This document shows, in pieces, positions 23,546 to 62,158 of a DNA stretch of 64,000 bases. The stretch covers positions 620,001-684,000 of the forward strand of contig NZ_LR738724.1 in assembly GCF_902702775.1 (NCBI RefSeq), given 5' to 3'. Under the pieces are notes generated by a model. The model searched no databases, was not told where the DNA came from, and saw nothing but the letters and a program-made list of their open reading frames with translations. Within the stretch, counting starts at the first letter, position 1, and every line of letters begins with the position of its first letter. The stretch comes from Streptococcus suis (GTDB lineage Bacteria; Bacillota; Bacilli; Lactobacillales; Streptococcaceae). The position numbers were made by a program, and so were the translations under genes.

Positions 23546-23674
23546 TTATATTTGTGACAGAAATGCGATCGCACATCAACCAGTAAACTGAATTTTGAGT
23601 CTTATACGAGACTAAATAGGTTTACAAACTGCTTTATTTTGGCTATAGGTAGGATAAACTTGCAGATTTTATAG

Positions 23675-27964
<4,290 letters not shown>

Positions 27965-27978
27965 GTATTGTTTACAAA

Positions 27979-28014
27979 TAACACCATCCCAGAAGTTAAG
28001 TTGGGATGGTGTTA
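27979..28014. terminator. Convergent terminator between arcH and the membrane-protein gene
   Basis: TAACACCATCCCA pairs perfectly with TGGGATGGTGTTA (13 bp, 10-nt loop). It sits between two convergent genes; the flanks are AT-rich rather than pure T-runs. Confidence 0.75.
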
Positions 28015-28016
28015 TA

Positions 28017-29537
28017 TTATATATTAAAAGCGTCTTCAAAACTTTGGTATTCCTGATAAAGGTGCCATTGGATGAGTGCTGACTGTTGTAAAAAGGCATC
28101 ATCAACCCGAAGTAACTGCTGCTGATACAGTAAAAGGAACTTTTTAAGGTTTTGTTTAGACCATCCGATTTCTTCTCCCTGTTGTAGGACTGGCAGGAGA
28201 GATTCTAATTCATCAACTAAGTAGGAAATCTGCCATTTCTTTAAATGATTTACAAACAAAGGGATTTTTTGAACGAAATATCGAGAGGATAGTGTTTTGT
28301 AGATACCGTTATGCTCAATAGAGGTAATCAATAAATATAGTTCGTTCCAAGATTGTATGTTCTGTTCAGAATAGTTGGGAACACAGCGAAATCTTTCGAT
28401 TTTAAAAGAAAGTTTATTTTTGTATTGAAGGCGGTAAAAGATAATCTGATTTGCAAAGTAAAAGTTAGGAATATCCCGCAGTGCTCCTTTTAAATGACTA
28501 TCACCTAGGGAAAGTTTTGCGTTATAAGTGGCTAAGAAAGTCATAAAGGCAATAAAGAATGTTAGACCTAAAAAGCCATATTGAATGGGAAAACCTGTCA
28601 GGATGGAATAATGGATTAATAAAAGACACGTACCGCTAATTAGCGGATGTACTCGCTTATTCAAGTAACGTAATGGCTTCACTACCTCTTCAACTTCGGG
28701 AGAACCAAGGTATTTATAGTTAAAGAGTAGACTCAGCTGATTCCATAGAATAATAAAGAAAAGGAAGCGGTAGTCATAATCAAAAATACTAAGTAGGTAA
28801 GTGAATAGTGTAAATAGTATCAGATAGATAGTCGTTATATTATGACGAGATTTTGATGGAATAAACTCGGTCTTAGTCGTTTGGAATAATAAGTAGATAG
28901 CTGAGGCGTAAGCAAATCCTCTAAAGATACTGGTAAGACTAAAAACATGGTATTCAAAAATATCCAGATATGAACCTATAAAGCTAGGAATCATACATAG
29001 AGCAATAATGCCTCCTAGGATATACAAATGCCTATTAAAATCCTTCTGAAATACAGGTTCGTAGTCTAAGGAGCATCTTCTTTTTTGTAGACGATTTAGG
29101 ACCCGCAAGGTCAAGAAGGAACCCCAAATATTGCTGAGAAGGAAGCTGATTTGTTCATCTCCTAGTTCAATTGTAGTTCCCGTAAGACAGGTAAGAGAAA
29201 TAAGCAAAGTGAGAAGAGATAAGAATTGCGCAATTCCAATAAATATTGATAGTGCCAATAATAGTTGGTTATCATTTTTATTTTCGAATTGAGCTCGCCG
29301 CGTTTTGCACCATTCTAAAAGATAGGCTCTGTTACTTGCTTTACGACAGGATTTCGCTCGTCGCTCAATGAGACGTATGACTTTAATATCATATATTGAG
29401 TCAAGGGTTGATTCGTCCAGTTGTTCGAGTATCAAAGCCATCTGACCTGGATGATATGATAGTAGGGCCTTCCAGCGCGCATAGGAGCGATTTGTGCTAG
29501 AAGCTAAGGTTGTTAATAGAGTCTGTACATCTAGCAT
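28017..29537 (-). CDS. Polytopic membrane protein of unknown function, third gene of the HscC cluster
   Basis: A 506-residue protein not recognised by sequence. About 110 soluble, basic residues (RRAKSCRKASNRAYLLEWCKTRRAQF near 74-99, quoted in part: SNRAYLLEWCKTRR) are followed by some eight to nine hydrophobic segments between about residues 113 and 345. A soluble C-terminal part of about 160 residues ends near FEDAFNI. It starts 3 bp after the Hsp70-like gene, so it is almost certainly co-transcribed with it and the J-domain gene. Context suggests a membrane client or anchor of that chaperone pair. Confidence 0.7.
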   Translation of the reverse strand: MLDVQTLLTTLASSTNRSYARWKALLSYHPGQMALILEQLDESTLDSIYDIKVIRLIERRAKSCRKASNRAYLLEWCKTRRAQFENKNDNQLLLALSIFIGIAQFLSLLTLLISLTCLTGTTIELGDEQISFLLSNIWGSFLTLRVLNRLQKRRCSLDYEPVFQKDFNRHLYILGGIIALCMIPSFIGSYLDIFEYHVFSLTSIFRGFAYASAIYLLFQTTKTEFIPSKSRHNITTIYLILFTLFTYLLSIFDYDYRFLFFIILWNQLSLLFNYKYLGSPEVEEVVKPLRYLNKRVHPLISGTCLLLIHYSILTGFPIQYGFLGLTFFIAFMTFLATYNAKLSLGDSHLKGALRDIPNFYFANQIIFYRLQYKNKLSFKIERFRCVPNYSEQNIQSWNELYLLITSIEHNGIYKTLSSRYFVQKIPLFVNHLKKWQISYLVDELESLLPVLQQGEEIGWSKQNLKKFLLLYQQQLLRVDDAFLQQSALIQWHLYQEYQSFEDAFNI

Positions 29538-29540
29538 GTC

Positions 29541-31202
29541 CTACCAACTTTCCTCTAGTCCATCTAGCTGGTTTTCAAAGATTTTATTAGCTTTCGCGAT
29601 GCGTTTTGCATCTTGGGTCTCAATCACTTTTTCATATCGCTGAATACAGTTCATCAAATAATCACGCTGTTCGGCTAATAGGGTCTGGAATAGACGTTCT
29701 GCGCGTGCTCGTAATAATTGGTAATGTTCACTATCTCGAGGATGGATTTTCAAGGAGGCTAGTTTTGCTCTTTTTTCCAATATTTCTTCGGCGGATAGCT
29801 GTTGTCGATCACGTAGTATTGTTTTGTTGTACACTTTTCCGGTAGAAAGAACGGTAATATCTACATCGAGAATACCGTTTATATCATAGGAGAAGCGGCA
29901 GTCTATTGCTTCATGTTCTTCATGATTTACAGGGATTGGAATATCCAAGGAACCGAGAAGAAGATTGGTGTCGGCTTGGTAGTTTTCTCCTTGATAAATG
30001 GTAAATAGAACATGTTGCTGCCCTAATTCATTCGTCCAGTAGCGTTCGACGTAGGAGGCAGGGAGTGTTGTATTTCTTTCTATTATGGGTGAGAAGACAT
30101 TTCCAACAATGGCAGTACCTAATGTAAAAGGACAAATGTCTGTTAACACAACATCTTTGATATCCTTGTCACGTTTTTTAATACCCGTTACAATACCACA
30201 CCCCATAGCTACGGCTTTATCCTGATCAACTTTAACGGAGATGGGACGTTTGAGCAGAAAAATTAGATAGTCTTGAATGAGTTTCATTTTAGTTGAGCCG
30301 CCAACTAGGATGACATCGGTTAAGTCTTCAGCATGTATCTGGGCATCTCGTAGAGCATTTTGAATAGGGGCATTCATTTTTGCAAGGAGAAAACGACAAA
30401 TCTCCACATATCGTTCCTTAGTTAATTTATACACATGAAGACTATCGTTGATGTTTACAGACATTCGAACGATATCTTCCTTATTGAGGGCCAATTTTGC
30501 TTTTTCAGCTTCCTGGTAAAGGAATCCCATTACCTCGTCAGACAAGTCTGATTTTTTATAAGGAAGATTTTGGATGAAGTCTTCAACAATTTGTTGAGTG
30601 AAGTCTTCCCCACCTAAGTGGTTTTCTCCAGCAACCGATACGATTTCAATAACATTGGCAAAAGCATCAACAATTGAAATGTCAAGTGTTCCCCCACCGA
30701 AGTCAATAATCATATAAGTGGCATCTTCTTCTCGACTGTGGTGGAGAGCAAGGGCGGCAGCAGATGGTTCATTGATAATTCGTTCAATTTTGACCCCTGC
30801 TAAGTGACCAGCAATTTTTGTTGCTGCGCGCTGATCATCGCTGAAATAGGCAGGGACGCTGACAATAATTTCATCAACCTTTTCACCTAGAAATTCTTCG
30901 GCATCTTCAATCAATTTTTTCAATATGAAGGCGCTAAGCTCCTCAGGTAGATACATCTGATCACCTAGAGGTAATTTTTTTCCAGTTCCCATTAGGCGTT
31001 TGAATCTTGATTGTGTAAGATGAGGATGACTCATCAACCGTTCTTTGGCAAATTTTCCTACGATGATGTCTCCGTTGTCAGATAAACCGACTACAGAAGG
31101 TGTTAAGAAATCGCCCAAATTGTTGGGAATGAGTTCTACCTTATTATTACGCCATGTTGCAACTAGTGAATTTGTTGTTCCTAAATCGATTCCAATAATC
31201 AT
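29541..31202 (-). CDS. hscC: HscC-type Hsp70 family chaperone
   Basis: A 553-residue Hsp70. The nucleotide-binding domain (about 1-360) has phosphate loop 1 IGIDLGTTNSLVATW (3-17), phosphate loop 2 IIDFGGGTLDIS and the adenosine motif VILVGGSTKM. The substrate-binding part shows TDICPFTLG, SPIIERNTTLPAS and YQGEN. The sequence and short length (no long DnaK lid) match E. coli HscC rather than the housekeeping DnaK, which is normally encoded with grpE and dnaJ elsewhere. It overlaps the J-domain gene by 4 nt (ATGA), so the two are translated together. Clients unknown. Confidence 0.88.
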   Translation of the reverse strand: MIIGIDLGTTNSLVATWRNNKVELIPNNLGDFLTPSVVGLSDNGDIIVGKFAKERLMSHPHLTQSRFKRLMGTGKKLPLGDQMYLPEELSAFILKKLIEDAEEFLGEKVDEIIVSVPAYFSDDQRAATKIAGHLAGVKIERIINEPSAAALALHHSREEDATYMIIDFGGGTLDISIVDAFANVIEIVSVAGENHLGGEDFTQQIVEDFIQNLPYKKSDLSDEVMGFLYQEAEKAKLALNKEDIVRMSVNINDSLHVYKLTKERYVEICRFLLAKMNAPIQNALRDAQIHAEDLTDVILVGGSTKMKLIQDYLIFLLKRPISVKVDQDKAVAMGCGIVTGIKKRDKDIKDVVLTDICPFTLGTAIVGNVFSPIIERNTTLPASYVERYWTNELGQQHVLFTIYQGENYQADTNLLLGSLDIPIPVNHEEHEAIDCRFSYDINGILDVDITVLSTGKVYNKTILRDRQQLSAEEILEKRAKLASLKIHPRDSEHYQLLRARAERLFQTLLAEQRDYLMNCIQRYEKVIETQDAKRIAKANKIFENQLDGLEESW

Positions 31203-32185
31203 ACTAATCTCTCCGTTGATAAACCTTTTTGAGTCTCAGGATTATTTAATCCTATCCAATAAATGTATCCAGCCAGTTCATTTAAACCATAATTTTGACA
31301 GAGTTGAACAAGTTCAATACGGTGTTCCCAAGGGCCAAAGAAGTAGTAGTTTAAAAGATGGGCTGTTAGTTTGTTACAGAATTGTTCATTGGCTACAAAA
31401 TAGCGGAAGTTATCACTGCGAAAGGCTTTCAATAGTAAATAAAAATCGCTTACCAATTCGAGAGAAGACAATAATTTTGCTAGATACTCTTCTGCTGCTT
31501 GTGCTATTGATTCTGTATCGGTATTAAATTGATCTTCTAATTGCTTTTGTTTATCTTGTGATAGATAAAGAGCCAGTTCATCTAATCCCAGTAGTTCACA
31601 CTGCTCAATGACCTTTTTGCGTTCAAATTCTTCCCCGTAAAAAGTAAGCTGACTGAGTTCAGCAATTAGTTGCTTTTGTATTTCTATATCTCTGATATGG
31701 AAATTGAATTCATCGGAAATTAAAATTTGATATAGAAGGTGGTAGTAGGGGGAGTTTTTGCAGGCAGTTTTTATATTGTCTACAAAGTTGGTATTTTCAA
31801 ATAGTTGGTTGTTGGCAGTGATGGTTTGTTCGCTTGCATCCTGTTCGGGAATTTCTTCCGAATGTGAGAAAGTAGAGAAATCAAAAGTGGAATGAGAAAT
31901 ATCTTCGGTTTTATTCTCATTGCGATCATCAAAGAAATCAAACGATGTCGCACTCTGCTGATTTTCAAGGTTGTTTTGCTCTCCAAACTCAGTAAATGTT
32001 TGTTTTGGCTTTGGTCTTGCTTGCTTAGCGTATTGTAAGGCTGATTTATAAGCATGCTGTAGGCGTTTAAAACCTTCGGGGTCTTCTTCAGGATGGACCT
32101 TTTTAATCCGTTCCGCGTAGGCTAATTTTATAGTACGTTGATCTGTTGTTGCAGCAATTTGCAACTCTTGCCAACAACTTTTCAT
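31199..32185 (-). CDS. J-domain co-chaperone with HPE in place of HPD
   Basis: A 328-residue protein with an N-terminal J domain (about residues 5-55): RTIKLAYAERIKKVHPEEDPEGFKR, given in part, with HPE where canonical J domains have HPD. Helix III continues LQHAYKSALQYAKQ. The rest is acidic, low-complexity (about 60-115), then helical repeats (LAELSQLTFYGEEFERKK and LTAHLLNYYFFGPWEHRIEL are similar to each other). It resembles the J-proteins paired with HscC (DjlB/DjlC) in E. coli. ATG 32185 has the better spacing from AAGGAG; ATG 32191 is possible. Confidence 0.75.
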   Translation of the reverse strand: MKSCWQELQIAATTDQRTIKLAYAERIKKVHPEEDPEGFKRLQHAYKSALQYAKQARPKPKQTFTEFGEQNNLENQQSATSFDFFDDRNENKTEDISHSTFDFSTFSHSEEIPEQDASEQTITANNQLFENTNFVDNIKTACKNSPYYHLLYQILISDEFNFHIRDIEIQKQLIAELSQLTFYGEEFERKKVIEQCELLGLDELALYLSQDKQKQLEDQFNTDTESIAQAAEEYLAKLLSSLELVSDFYLLLKAFRSDNFRYFVANEQFCNKLTAHLLNYYFFGPWEHRIELVQLCQNYGLNELAGYIYWIGLNNPETQKGLSTERLV

Positions 32186-32242
32186 ATTCATTACTCCTTT
32201 ATGGATACTTAAATTATTATAGCATATTTGTTGCGAAAAATT

Positions 32243-32268
32243 AATAAGCCTAGGTATTTCTAGGCTTA
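32243..32268 (-). terminator. Terminator of argR
   Basis: TAAGCCTAG and CTAGGCTTA (9-bp stem, 6-nt loop), followed on the minus strand by TTAATTTTT. The argR stop codon lies in the stem. Confidence 0.75.
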
Positions 32269-32739
32269 TAATTTACTAAAGAAAAATGGTGGAGTAAACT
32301 GTTTCAAGTGCTCGAAGCAAGCTTGTGCCCCTTCGACATCTTCACAAATGATGAGACAGACATCGTCACCGCAGACGGTCGCTACAATTTGAGGAATCTC
32401 CATGGCATCCAAAATAGAACCGAATGAGTTGGCCAATCCAGGTAGGGTCTTGAGCACCACTTGATGTTGGATAGGTTTTAGCATGACTAAAGCATCTTCC
32501 ATATAGAGTCGCAGTCGTTTTTCCCAGCGAGTAGGAGCAATGGGGTTGATGATATAGTGAGAAGAATCATCTTCGTTGACTTTGACAAGATTGAGCATCT
32601 TGATGTCACGGGAGAGGGTAGATTGGGTGACGGAGACTCCGTTGACCTCTAGTAATTCTTGTAATTCCTGCTGGGTATGTATTTTCTTCTCCATGATTAG
32701 AGACAGGATCAGCTGATGGCGGCTTTCAATCTTGTTCAT
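32266..32739 (-). CDS. argR: Arginine repressor, ArgR/AhrC family
   Basis: A 157-residue regulator. The N-terminal winged helix contains [18 protein letters not shown] (about residues 36-53), the ArgR DNA-recognition motif. The C-terminal hexamerisation and arginine-binding domain has [14 protein letters not shown] and [12 protein letters not shown]. It senses intracellular arginine and, in streptococci, participates in control of arginine metabolism together with the arc activator. The start follows AAGGAGGG. In the known S. suis arc layout argR closes the locus; here three chaperone-type genes separate it from arcH. Confidence 0.92.
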
Positions 32740-59071: not shown

Positions 59072-62000
59072 ATGAGTAGCAAAAAAAGGAACGATTATAC
59101 AGAAGTCTCGCGCAAAAGCCGAGTAAAGATGCATAAATCTGGAAAACATTGGGTGCGTACGGTGATGTCGCAAATTGGACTTATCCAATTAGGCAAACAA
59201 ACTACTTCTGAAAAAACTAAGGTGAAACTGTCTCCAACACCACAATAAGTTTCTGCAACAAAAGTATTACGTGGTTTGATAGCTGCGAGTGCTGTAGTTG
59301 GTGGTGGGGTCTCTGTAGATCAAGTCCTTGCAGAAGATGCGGTGATGGCAACCGAAGTAACTACGTCTGTGTTGGTTAATGAAGATACCGTGAGCATGAG
59401 CAATGTTAATGCTGATTCAGATACAACTTCACAATCGCACAGTATCTCTGAATCGACAAGCAACTCAGAATCGGTTAGTCAATCAATTTCTACAAGTGAA
59501 TCTGTTTCGGGAAGTGAGTCTGTTTCAGAAAGTGAAGCAATTTCCACAAGTGAGTCAGTATCAGCTAGTGAATCAGCCCTAAGTTCGGAAACTGCTAGTA
59601 CGACTAGCCGAACTACTGGTATTATTTATCGTGTTGAATATGTAGATGAAACAGGAAAAGTGGTTAAAAAATATCCACGTTCAGCAATGGTAACCACTAC
59701 TGATTTGATTGCCAAAACAACTGTGACCGAAACAGCAACACAAATCCCATCAGGCTATCGCTTGGCTGAGAATCAGTCAAGTGTTGCAGAAAAAGAAGTT
59801 GTTGAAAAACATACGAATGTTATTCAATTTCGCATAGAAAAAGCTGAAACGACAAGTACGGTATCATCTAGTGCATATACTGCTTTACGTGCAGCAGTTA
59901 ATGGTTCCAAAGCTTCTTTAAATACTAGTGTGACATCCAAATCATTGGATGAATTAAAAAGTTTTAGTGCAACTGATTTATTGATTGTTGAATCAGGCTA
60001 TAGTGCTCAACTAAACTATATTAGAGTTGGATCAACATACGTACAAACTCTTGCTGAAGCTATTGAAAAAGGTTTGACCGGGACATATCAATTTAATTTC
60101 ACGATTATTGATAATTCTACGGGTTCACATTATACAAAACCTGATGGACAGGTAGATATTGTTACAGCTAGTCTTTCAGTTACGAAGGTAGATAGCACTT
60201 CCATCTCACAAAGTATTTCAGCATCTGAAAGTGAATCGAAATCTATCTCTACTTCAGAGTCACTTTCCAATTCAATTTCAACCTCTATTTCAGAGTCGAT
60301 TACTGAATCTGTTTCTGAGTCTGTGTCAAATTCAGAGTCGCTTTCATATTCGATTTCAGACTCTATTTCTGAGTCAGTTGCAGAATCTGTTTCTGAGTCT
60401 GTGTCAAATTCAGAGTCACTTTCCAATTCAATTTCAACCTCTATTTCTGAGTCAGTGCGCGAGTCGGTAGTCGAATCGGTATCAGAATCAGTGCGCGAGT
60501 CGGTAGTCGAATCGGTATCAGAATCAGTGCGCGAGTCGGTAGTCGAATCGGTATCAGAATCAGTGCGCGAGTCGGTAGTCGAATCGGTATCAGAATCGGT
60601 TCGTGAGTCGGTAGTCGAATCGGTATCAGAATCAGTTCGTGAGTCAGTAGTTGAATCGCTATCAGAATCAGTGAGTGAATCCGTTTCAGAATCAGTTTCA
60701 GAATCTATCTCAGAGTCAGTCAGCGAGTCTCTTTCAGAATCTATCTCAGAATCTACATCTGAATCCATCTCCGAGTCGGTCAGCGAGTCCCTTTCAGAAT
60801 CCGTCTCTGAATCCATCTCCGAGTCAGTCAGCGAATCGATTTCCGAATCTGTATCAGAATCCATCTCAGAGTCAGTGAGTGAATCAATTTCCGAATCTGT
60901 CTCTGAGTCCATCTCCGAGTCAGTCAGCGAGTCTATCTCTGAGTCAGTGAGCGAATCAATTTCTGAGTCTACATCAGAATCTATCTCAGAATCAGTTTCT
61001 GAATCCATCTCAGAATCAGTCAGCGAATCTATTTCTGAATCTACCTCTGAGTCAATTTCCGAGTCAGTCAGCGAGTCGATTTCAGAATCAGTTTCTGAGT
61101 CTATCTCCGAGTCAGTTAGCGAATCGGTTTCCGAATCCGTCTCAGAATCGGTCAGCGAGTCGATTTCCGAATCCGTATCTGAGTCTATCTCCGAGTCAGT
61201 TAGCGAATCGATTTCCGAATCAGTCGCCGAGTCAGTAAGTGAGTCCCTTTCTGAATCCGTCTCTGAGTCCCTTTCAGAATCAGTCAGCGAGTCAATTTCC
61301 GAATCCGTCTCAGAATCTATCTCAGAATCGGTCAGCGAGTCGATTTCTGAATCTACATCTGAATCCATCTCAGAATCAGTGAGTGAGTCTATCTCGGAAT
61401 CTACATCTGAATCCATCTCAGAATCAGTGAGTGAGTCAATTTCAGAGTCGGTAAGCGAGTCTCTTTCAGAATCAGTCTCAGAATCTATCTCTGAATCGGT
61501 TAGCGAGTCGATTTCTGAATCCACATCTGAGTCAATTTCCGAATCTGTATCTGAGTCAATTTCCGAGTCGGTTAGCGAATCTATTTCGGAATCTACATCT
61601 GAGTCTATCTCAGAGTCAGTGAGCGAATCTCTTTCTGAATCCGTATCTGAATCTCTTTCAGAGTCAGTAAGTGAGTCAATTTCAGAATCAGTTAGCGAGT
61701 CTATCTCAGAGTCAGTAAGTGAATCCACATCTGAGTCAATTTCCGAATCCGTCTCAGAATCTATCTCTGAATCGGTAAGCGAGTCAATTTTAGAATCAGT
61801 AAGTGAATCGATTTCCGAATCCGTCTCTGAGTCTATCTCCGAGTCGGTGAGTGAATCAATTTCAGAATCCGTCAGCGAATCGATTTCAGAATCTACATCT
61901 GAGTCTATCTCAGAATCGGTAAGTGAGTCTATTTCCGAATCGGTAAGCGAATCCCTTTCTGAATCAGTCTCTGAATCAATTTCTGAGTCAGAATCAACTC

Positions 62001-62158
62001 CATCTCGTCAGTCTCAAACTCCACGTAGACAAGGCGTATTGCCAAATACAGGTGAACAGTCTTCAGCTTGGGCTGGAATCCTTGGGGCAGGTCTTCTTCT
62101 TGGTGGTTTGTATAAACGCCGTAAAAAAGAAGAGGAAGAACAAGATGGTGTGAAATAA
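59072..62158 (+). pseudogene. Serine-rich-repeat LPXTG adhesin, signal region broken by a TAA codon
   Basis: ATG 59072 (GGGGAG upstream) opens a frame with the KxYKxGKxW-type signal motif KMHKSGKHW (about residues 19-27) of accessory-Sec adhesins. TAA at 59246-59248 stops it after 58 codons; the same frame then continues (VSATKVLRGLIAASAVVGGG, cleavage near LAED). The rest has a first Ser-rich part, a MucBP-like domain (IIYRVEYVDETGKVVKKYP), a second small domain, then about 590 residues of SESVSESI-type repeats, ending in LPNTG, a membrane helix and RRKK. No secA2/secY2 or glycosyltransferase genes lie in the window. One base substitution could restore it; read-through or internal re-initiation cannot be excluded. 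Confidence 0.75.
60200..61990 (+). repeat. Ser-rich coding repeat (SES-x-SES-x)
   Basis: About 1.8 kb of degenerate 12-bp units encoding SESV, SESI, SESL or SEST. A subset at about 60450-60660 is a 36-bp unit encoding SESVRESVVESV repeated six times with very little variation, indicating recent expansion. The long antisense open frame across it is a codon-bias artefact. Confidence 0.9.

Follow-up and report, generated by a model that had tools for sequence, protein, structure and literature searches.

HscC is among the least understood of the bacterial Hsp70 proteins, and the account of it in the part of PMC8215388 available to us gives a length of 550-580 aa and lists no known clients (PMC8215388). 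In Escherichia coli, HscC is stimulated by DjlC; DjlB and DjlC are both tail-anchored, and Cd2+ and UV phenotypes are described for this system with its membrane-inserted DjlC (PMC8215388). E. coli HscC is thus not without a membrane partner, as an earlier note on the DNA studied here had supposed. A 2026 review, in the section we could consult, cites DjlB/C and treats HPE as the sole replacement of the HPD motif that seems to be tolerated (PMC13254874). Literature searches returned no paper pairing Streptococcus suis with a J domain-containing protein and none pairing Streptococcus with the molecular chaperone HscC; the HscC and Streptococcus papers among the matches listed were off topic by title. 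Some of the architectures discussed below may already be listed in the 2020 survey of bacterial J-proteins by Barriot. Here we compare these systems with a three-gene locus of S. suis, found in a 64,000-nucleotide stretch of its genome (the window). The species assignment, S. suis or a very near relative, agrees with the best database proteins, which bear this name at 97% identity. Genomes and loci used for comparison carry G and L numbers, respectively.

The three genes lie on the minus strand, in the 5' to 3' order J-protein (32185-31199; 328 aa counted from the second ATG), HscC-type Hsp70 (hscC; 31202-29541; 553 aa) and membrane protein (29537-28017; 506 aa). The J-protein gene overlaps hscC by 4 nt and only 3 bp part hscC from the membrane gene. 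The compact operon that the earlier note proposed is borne out by this spacing and the common strand, and the observed operon of J-protein, Hsp70 and membrane gene is confirmed. Because the arrangement is conserved across genomes, it is more than chance. For the J-protein, the second ATG (32185) is the most likely start, favoured over 32191 by homologue starts and Shine-Dalgarno spacing. We read by eye, on the minus strand 5' of this gene, a Shine-Dalgarno sequence AGGAG (32194-32198) and a putative promoter with an extended -10 element, TGCTATAAT (32216-32224); the latter is absent from the output of a promoter scan, whose number of sites was no higher than chance. This element sits between the J gene and a terminator-like hairpin (32244-32269, minus strand; -14.9 kcal/mol, z -4.5) that closes argR and parts it from the operon. 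Given the argR hairpin upstream and the extended -10 before the J gene, the three genes are probably transcribed on their own. At the other end, a strong hairpin (27978-28015) lies between the convergent arcH and membrane genes; folding is seen on both strands (z -6.2 and -7.2), and the scan called a terminator on the plus strand only. The names argR, queA, arcH and those of the other arc genes are presumptive, assigned from sequence and from papers on the arc locus.

The Hsp70 matches the Pfam Hsp70 family at 5.5e-115, and its 553 aa fall inside the HscC range. In a tree, a branch with support of 100/100 unites it with 25 further HscC-type proteins, E. coli HscC among them, and sets these 26 rows apart from three DnaK and one HscA. 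We also aligned the Hsp70 with HscC and DnaK of E. coli and with the DnaK encoded in the same genome, and the tree and the match to E. coli HscC uphold the HscC-type identity first assigned by eye. The GrpE-signature residues (DnaK 290-295) are deleted, leaving a 6-residue gap, and are retained in the genome's own DnaK. Lid helix B is shortened, with a 10-column gap against about nine missing residues in a review account. Deletions at DnaK 76-101 and near D211 are shared with the genome's own DnaK and so do not discriminate. The catalytic or ATPase and J-contact residues that we inspected are kept, including the Arg equivalent to DnaK R167, the exception being the D211 loop. An insertion of 4-8 residues in loop L1,2 of the SBD, a hallmark of HscC in the portion of the review seen, is absent in the alignment from the window Hsp70 and from L032, L033, L035, L036, L042 and L043, and is present in E. 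coli HscC, L037, L046 and L047. Because this insertion varies inside the clade, we call the protein HscC-type by phylogeny and make no claim of orthology to E. coli HscC.

In the J-protein, the J domain is matched by Pfam at 2.1e-4 (21.8 bits), under the 27.8 cut-off. Helices I-III of this domain are followed by a low-confidence linker at about 61-127 and by two tandem helical modules of ~60 aa, at about 153-211 and 252-310 (residue 1 at the upstream ATG, 32191), which are alike at a profile comparison probability of 97%; the structure model has a pLDDT of 69.9 and a pTM of 0.32. The motif of the J domain is HPE, which the earlier note had regarded as an oddity. This impression did not survive comparison: HPE is found in all 27 streptococcal HscC-linked J-proteins examined, the window included, and in E. 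coli DjlB and DjlC, for which the consulted section of the 2026 review agrees (PMC13254874). It also predominates near HscC more widely, in 34 of the 55 J-proteins encoded close to HscC among 59 other loci, with HPD in five. A J domain with HPE beside HscC is a DjlB/DjlC-type feature. The window J-protein has it but is without a C-terminal membrane anchor, with zero membrane segments at a hydropathy limit of 1.6; it may therefore work like DjlC, although we do not class it as one.

The third gene encodes a protein for which, as the earlier note held, we find no recognised family: there is no Pfam match reaching the cut-off, no NCBIfam or PADLOC match at E <= 1, no match in phage and plasmid records, and no convincing fold match in structural comparison. 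Its predicted regions are a helical N-terminal part (1-86), an eight-helix core (about 87-353) and a helical C-terminal part (about 392-501), with both ends inside. The structure model, of medium confidence (pLDDT 63.6, pTM 0.50), has eight long core helices, of which plain hydropathy at the 1.6 limit recovers just four, so that this rule under-calls helices. Lysine and arginine residues fit the eight-helix layout, numbering 46 on the predicted inner side and 1 on the outer in alternate loops. Outside its own species cluster the membrane protein diverges faster than its neighbours: identity between the window and the nearer copy in G243 is 30% for the membrane protein, 53% for the J-protein, 84% for HscC and 88% for ArgR. 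The G243 locus (L032, 5635-8644) has two tandem copies of the membrane gene 3' of hscC, each of ~500 aa and 19-27% alike by region.

Among 284 Streptococcus genomes, HscC is present in 33 and the J-protein in the same 33 and in G161. Wide flanks were examined for 27 of the 33, among them the window; the other six (G112, G115, G119, G120, G123 and G126) have J open frames of 932 aa and no membrane gene by profile. Membrane segments were predicted by a crude hydropathy rule that over-calls soluble proteins (it flags 9 HscC proteins among 61, a total that counts two duplicate loci). By this rule, 18 of the 27 loci encode J-proteins of 848-1001 aa with 6-8 predicted segments, four encode shorter ones with 1-4, and five, including the window, combine a segment-free J-protein with a separate membrane gene. 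None of the other 22 streptococcal HscC loci examined has such a separate gene, and the J-proteins there bear predicted membrane segments. A six-row profile finds the full-length membrane gene in five of the 284 genomes, each time directly 3' of hscC. Its sixth match is a relic in G161 (L034; compare G012, L035), in which the J frame is still open; after it, an hscC start that contains a stop is joined to about 100 codons from the end of the membrane gene. The conservation of the membrane gene beside hscC that the earlier note anticipated thus extends through the S. suis clade (5/5) and fails in the other 22 loci.

The five genomes with a soluble J-protein and a membrane gene form one clade in the tree (support 97/96), and the loci with fusions of a J domain to multiple membrane segments form the sister HscC clade (98/99). 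Since all cases fall in one clade, perhaps a single evolutionary event gave rise to them. The most economical history suggested by these comparisons is that membrane-bearing J-proteins are the older state in the genus and that the S. suis clade moved the membrane role to another gene. We detect no homology of the separate membrane protein to its counterpart in the fused J-proteins, so that an origin by fission or fusion is at most conjectural. The order of divergence is similar within the sister clade, where mean identities to one member are 89% for HscC, 81% for the J domain, 68% for the cytosolic part, 65% for the membrane part and 47% for the linker. In many streptococci (L038-L045, L048, L050 and L097-L103), hscC and a fused J gene lie 157-176 bp after infC-rpmI-rplT (identified by eye) on the same strand, and this proximity could permit co-expression with the translation operon.

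Beyond the window we surveyed 59 HscC loci, and in 55 of them a J gene lies no more than three genes away from hscC. At least one membrane segment is predicted by the same rule in 48 of these 55 J-proteins, against a background of 195 of 400 other ORFs of at least 250 aa in the same stretches. The seven segment-free J-proteins comprise four from the S. suis clade and those of L090, L093 and L094. These last three have neither a predicted membrane segment in the J-protein nor an adjoining relative of the membrane protein, and a membrane anchor is therefore not obligatory.

The same comparison bears on the contact between the two chaperones, in which R167 of DnaK touches the HPD motif. In the Lactobacillales outside Streptococcus (L064-L087), 13 of 21 HscC-linked J-proteins have neither HPD nor HPE, carrying IPD, FPD, VPD, QPD, NID, TID, DID, VTD, RAD, DLE, DLS or HPQ in its place, and the adjacent HscC proteins are without the Arg equivalent to R167. 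Across 47 rows this Arg is kept in 30 of 31 with HPD or HPE and in 3 of 16 without, a count limited by the tree, on which only two changes at this position are needed; L067 keeps HPD and has Cys at the R167-equivalent position. The standard J-Hsp70 contact was apparently abandoned in these 13 cases, and the association of motif and Arg is suggestive and would fit co-evolution between neighbouring J and HscC genes. The comparison also yields a list of J-Hsp70 pairs open to testing: some retain the HPD-Arg167 contact, some have it altered to HPE and others seem to have given it up. On plasmids of Proteobacteria (L150-L153), the J-like proteins beside HscC have RPD (L151, L153), DPQ (L152) and IDQ (L150) at the HPD position when aligned by eye. 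Two of them, on plasmids of Pseudomonas oryzihabitans and Eleftheria terrae (L151, L152), place HscC near copper genes (copC/copD with a heavy-metal two-component system, and a CopD family gene), a setting that fits the metal phenotype described for hscC in E. coli.

The operon belongs, with arcH, to an 8.7-kb accessory block (23552-32265). In G251 and G262, 86-88 bp replace the block and arcT directly adjoins argR; these genomes are otherwise close to the window, with QueA 99% and arc-locus proteins 97-99.7% alike (ArcD 87% in G262). The suggestion in the earlier note that the cluster parts argR from the arc genes as if inserted is thus substantiated. The genes arcT and argR adjoin also in the more distant relatives G024, G195 and G023, and the five remaining stretches inspected (L142-L146) showed no arc genes next to queA/argR. 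G243 and G249 have the operon at the same place without arcH. G+C content is 36.4% in the membrane gene, 36.5% in the J gene and 40.0% in hscC, against 41.3% in the window. In those parts of two papers on the S. suis arc locus that were at hand, arcABC, arcD, arcT, arcH and argR are named and chaperone genes go unmentioned (PMC5039431, PMC4129364). The membrane gene lies directly 3' of hscC in 5/5 genomes at three chromosomal sites: between argR and arcT in three genomes, between tig-like and ssb-like genes in G012 and beside an aspS-like gene in G135, where tig, ssb and aspS were named by eye. Elsewhere in the window, 59276-62158 encodes a long surface protein with serine-rich repeats and an LPNTG end; its repeats also yield a long open frame on the opposite strand (60130-61728).

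Judging from sequence, the J-protein and HscC almost certainly form a dedicated pair. The membrane protein is probably a functional partner of this pair, and whether it acts specifically as an anchor or dock we consider evenly balanced. On the whole we lean slightly toward a chaperone machine of three parts, built around HscC, that acts on the inner side of the cell membrane and whose anchor has shifted to a separate protein. In such a machine, the J domain would dock its HPE loop on HscC, at the Arg equivalent to DnaK R167, and trigger ATP hydrolysis; HscC would work without GrpE, since the GrpE contact site is deleted. The inside-facing helical ends of the eight-helix protein may bind the tandem modules of the J-protein or HscC, and the protein would keep the pair at the membrane, supplying in trans an anchor that most other HscC J-proteins have in cis. 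The clients are probably membrane or envelope proteins, by analogy with the E. coli system with its membrane-inserted DjlC and Cd2+ and UV phenotypes (PMC8215388). One could envision, as a possible though doubtful extension, that the eight-helix protein stands for a new type of membrane partner of Hsp70 proteins: a rapidly evolving scaffold on which J-protein and HscC dock at the membrane and which also selects or holds the client. If this were true, the J-protein's own anchor would no longer decide where the chaperones are targeted in this lineage; a membrane subunit that can be separated and swapped would do so instead.

Alternatively, and as the chief rival to this reading, the membrane protein could be a dedicated client that HscC and the J-protein fold, insert or regulate, much as HscA and HscB serve a single scaffold, IscU. 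The membrane gene shares the operon and is translated last, its full-length form occurs only beside hscC in the 284 genomes, and G161 has lost most of both hscC and the membrane gene while its J frame is still open; the clustering of E. coli hscA and hscB with iscU offers a precedent. We nonetheless consider this unlikely, as the supposed client is less conserved than either chaperone (identity to the G243 copy 30%, against 84% for HscC and 53% for the J-protein), and the 22 streptococcal HscC loci whose J-proteins bear membrane segments have no such adjoining gene. Moreover, broad peptide specificity is given for E. coli HscC in the part of the source available (PMC8215388).

That the membrane protein is an unrelated accessory product (a transporter, an enzyme or a small-molecule device) merely sharing the promoter appears quite unlikely: its retention directly 3' of hscC at three chromosomal places in all five genomes argues otherwise, even though it has no family or convincing fold match and its gene belongs to an accessory block of variable presence. 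The presence or absence of the operon between close relatives, the rapid divergence of the membrane protein and its tandem second copy in G243 might also bring to mind an envelope-stress or phage-defence island with a fast-evolving sensor or effector. This we regard as highly improbable. Of the three proteins, the Hsp70 alone has a PADLOC match at E <= 1, and a weak one (E 0.011, 12.5 bits); the membrane protein is unmatched in phage or plasmid records. In the sister clade, too, the fused J-proteins outpace their HscC in both cytosolic and membrane parts, which points to loose constraint in general. Returning to the three-part machine, what is undescribed here is the separate membrane component, and the chaperone pair is of a known kind. 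The earlier note's candidacy of the locus as an undescribed system therefore stands for that component and lapses for the HscC-J pair, known from E. coli.

Set beside the described systems, the locus resembles HscA/HscB/IscU in that a specialised Hsp70, a dedicated J-protein and, in that case, a client gene share one cluster. Unlike the window Hsp70, HscA lies outside the HscC clade in the tree, and the likeness serves as an analogy for the client explanation. A second comparison is with the streptococcal loci of the sister HscC clade (98/99), most of which lie near genes that by eye are rplT-like. They share HPE and adjacent genes with the window but join the J domain and 6-8 predicted segments in one chain of 848-1001 aa, encoded downstream of hscC. 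With the E. coli HscC-DjlC/DjlB system the locus has in common an HscC-clade Hsp70 that has lost the GrpE signature and a J-protein with an MK-x-CW start and HPE; closely placed genes are likewise shared, and so is a link to the membrane (PMC8215388). It differs in gene order, for E. coli hscC runs the opposite way, whereas the J gene of the window lies upstream of hscC on the same strand, and in the DUF1266 genes that overlap djlB and djlC, a family with no Pfam match in the three proteins here. The membrane part differs as well: DjlB and DjlC, of 475-483 aa, have their own C-terminal segment, and the window J-protein has none, with a separate protein of ~8 helices instead. The anchor and J domain thus form one chain in E. 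coli, while J domain, Hsp70 and membrane part are seemingly three proteins in S. suis, where each role could be removed alone.
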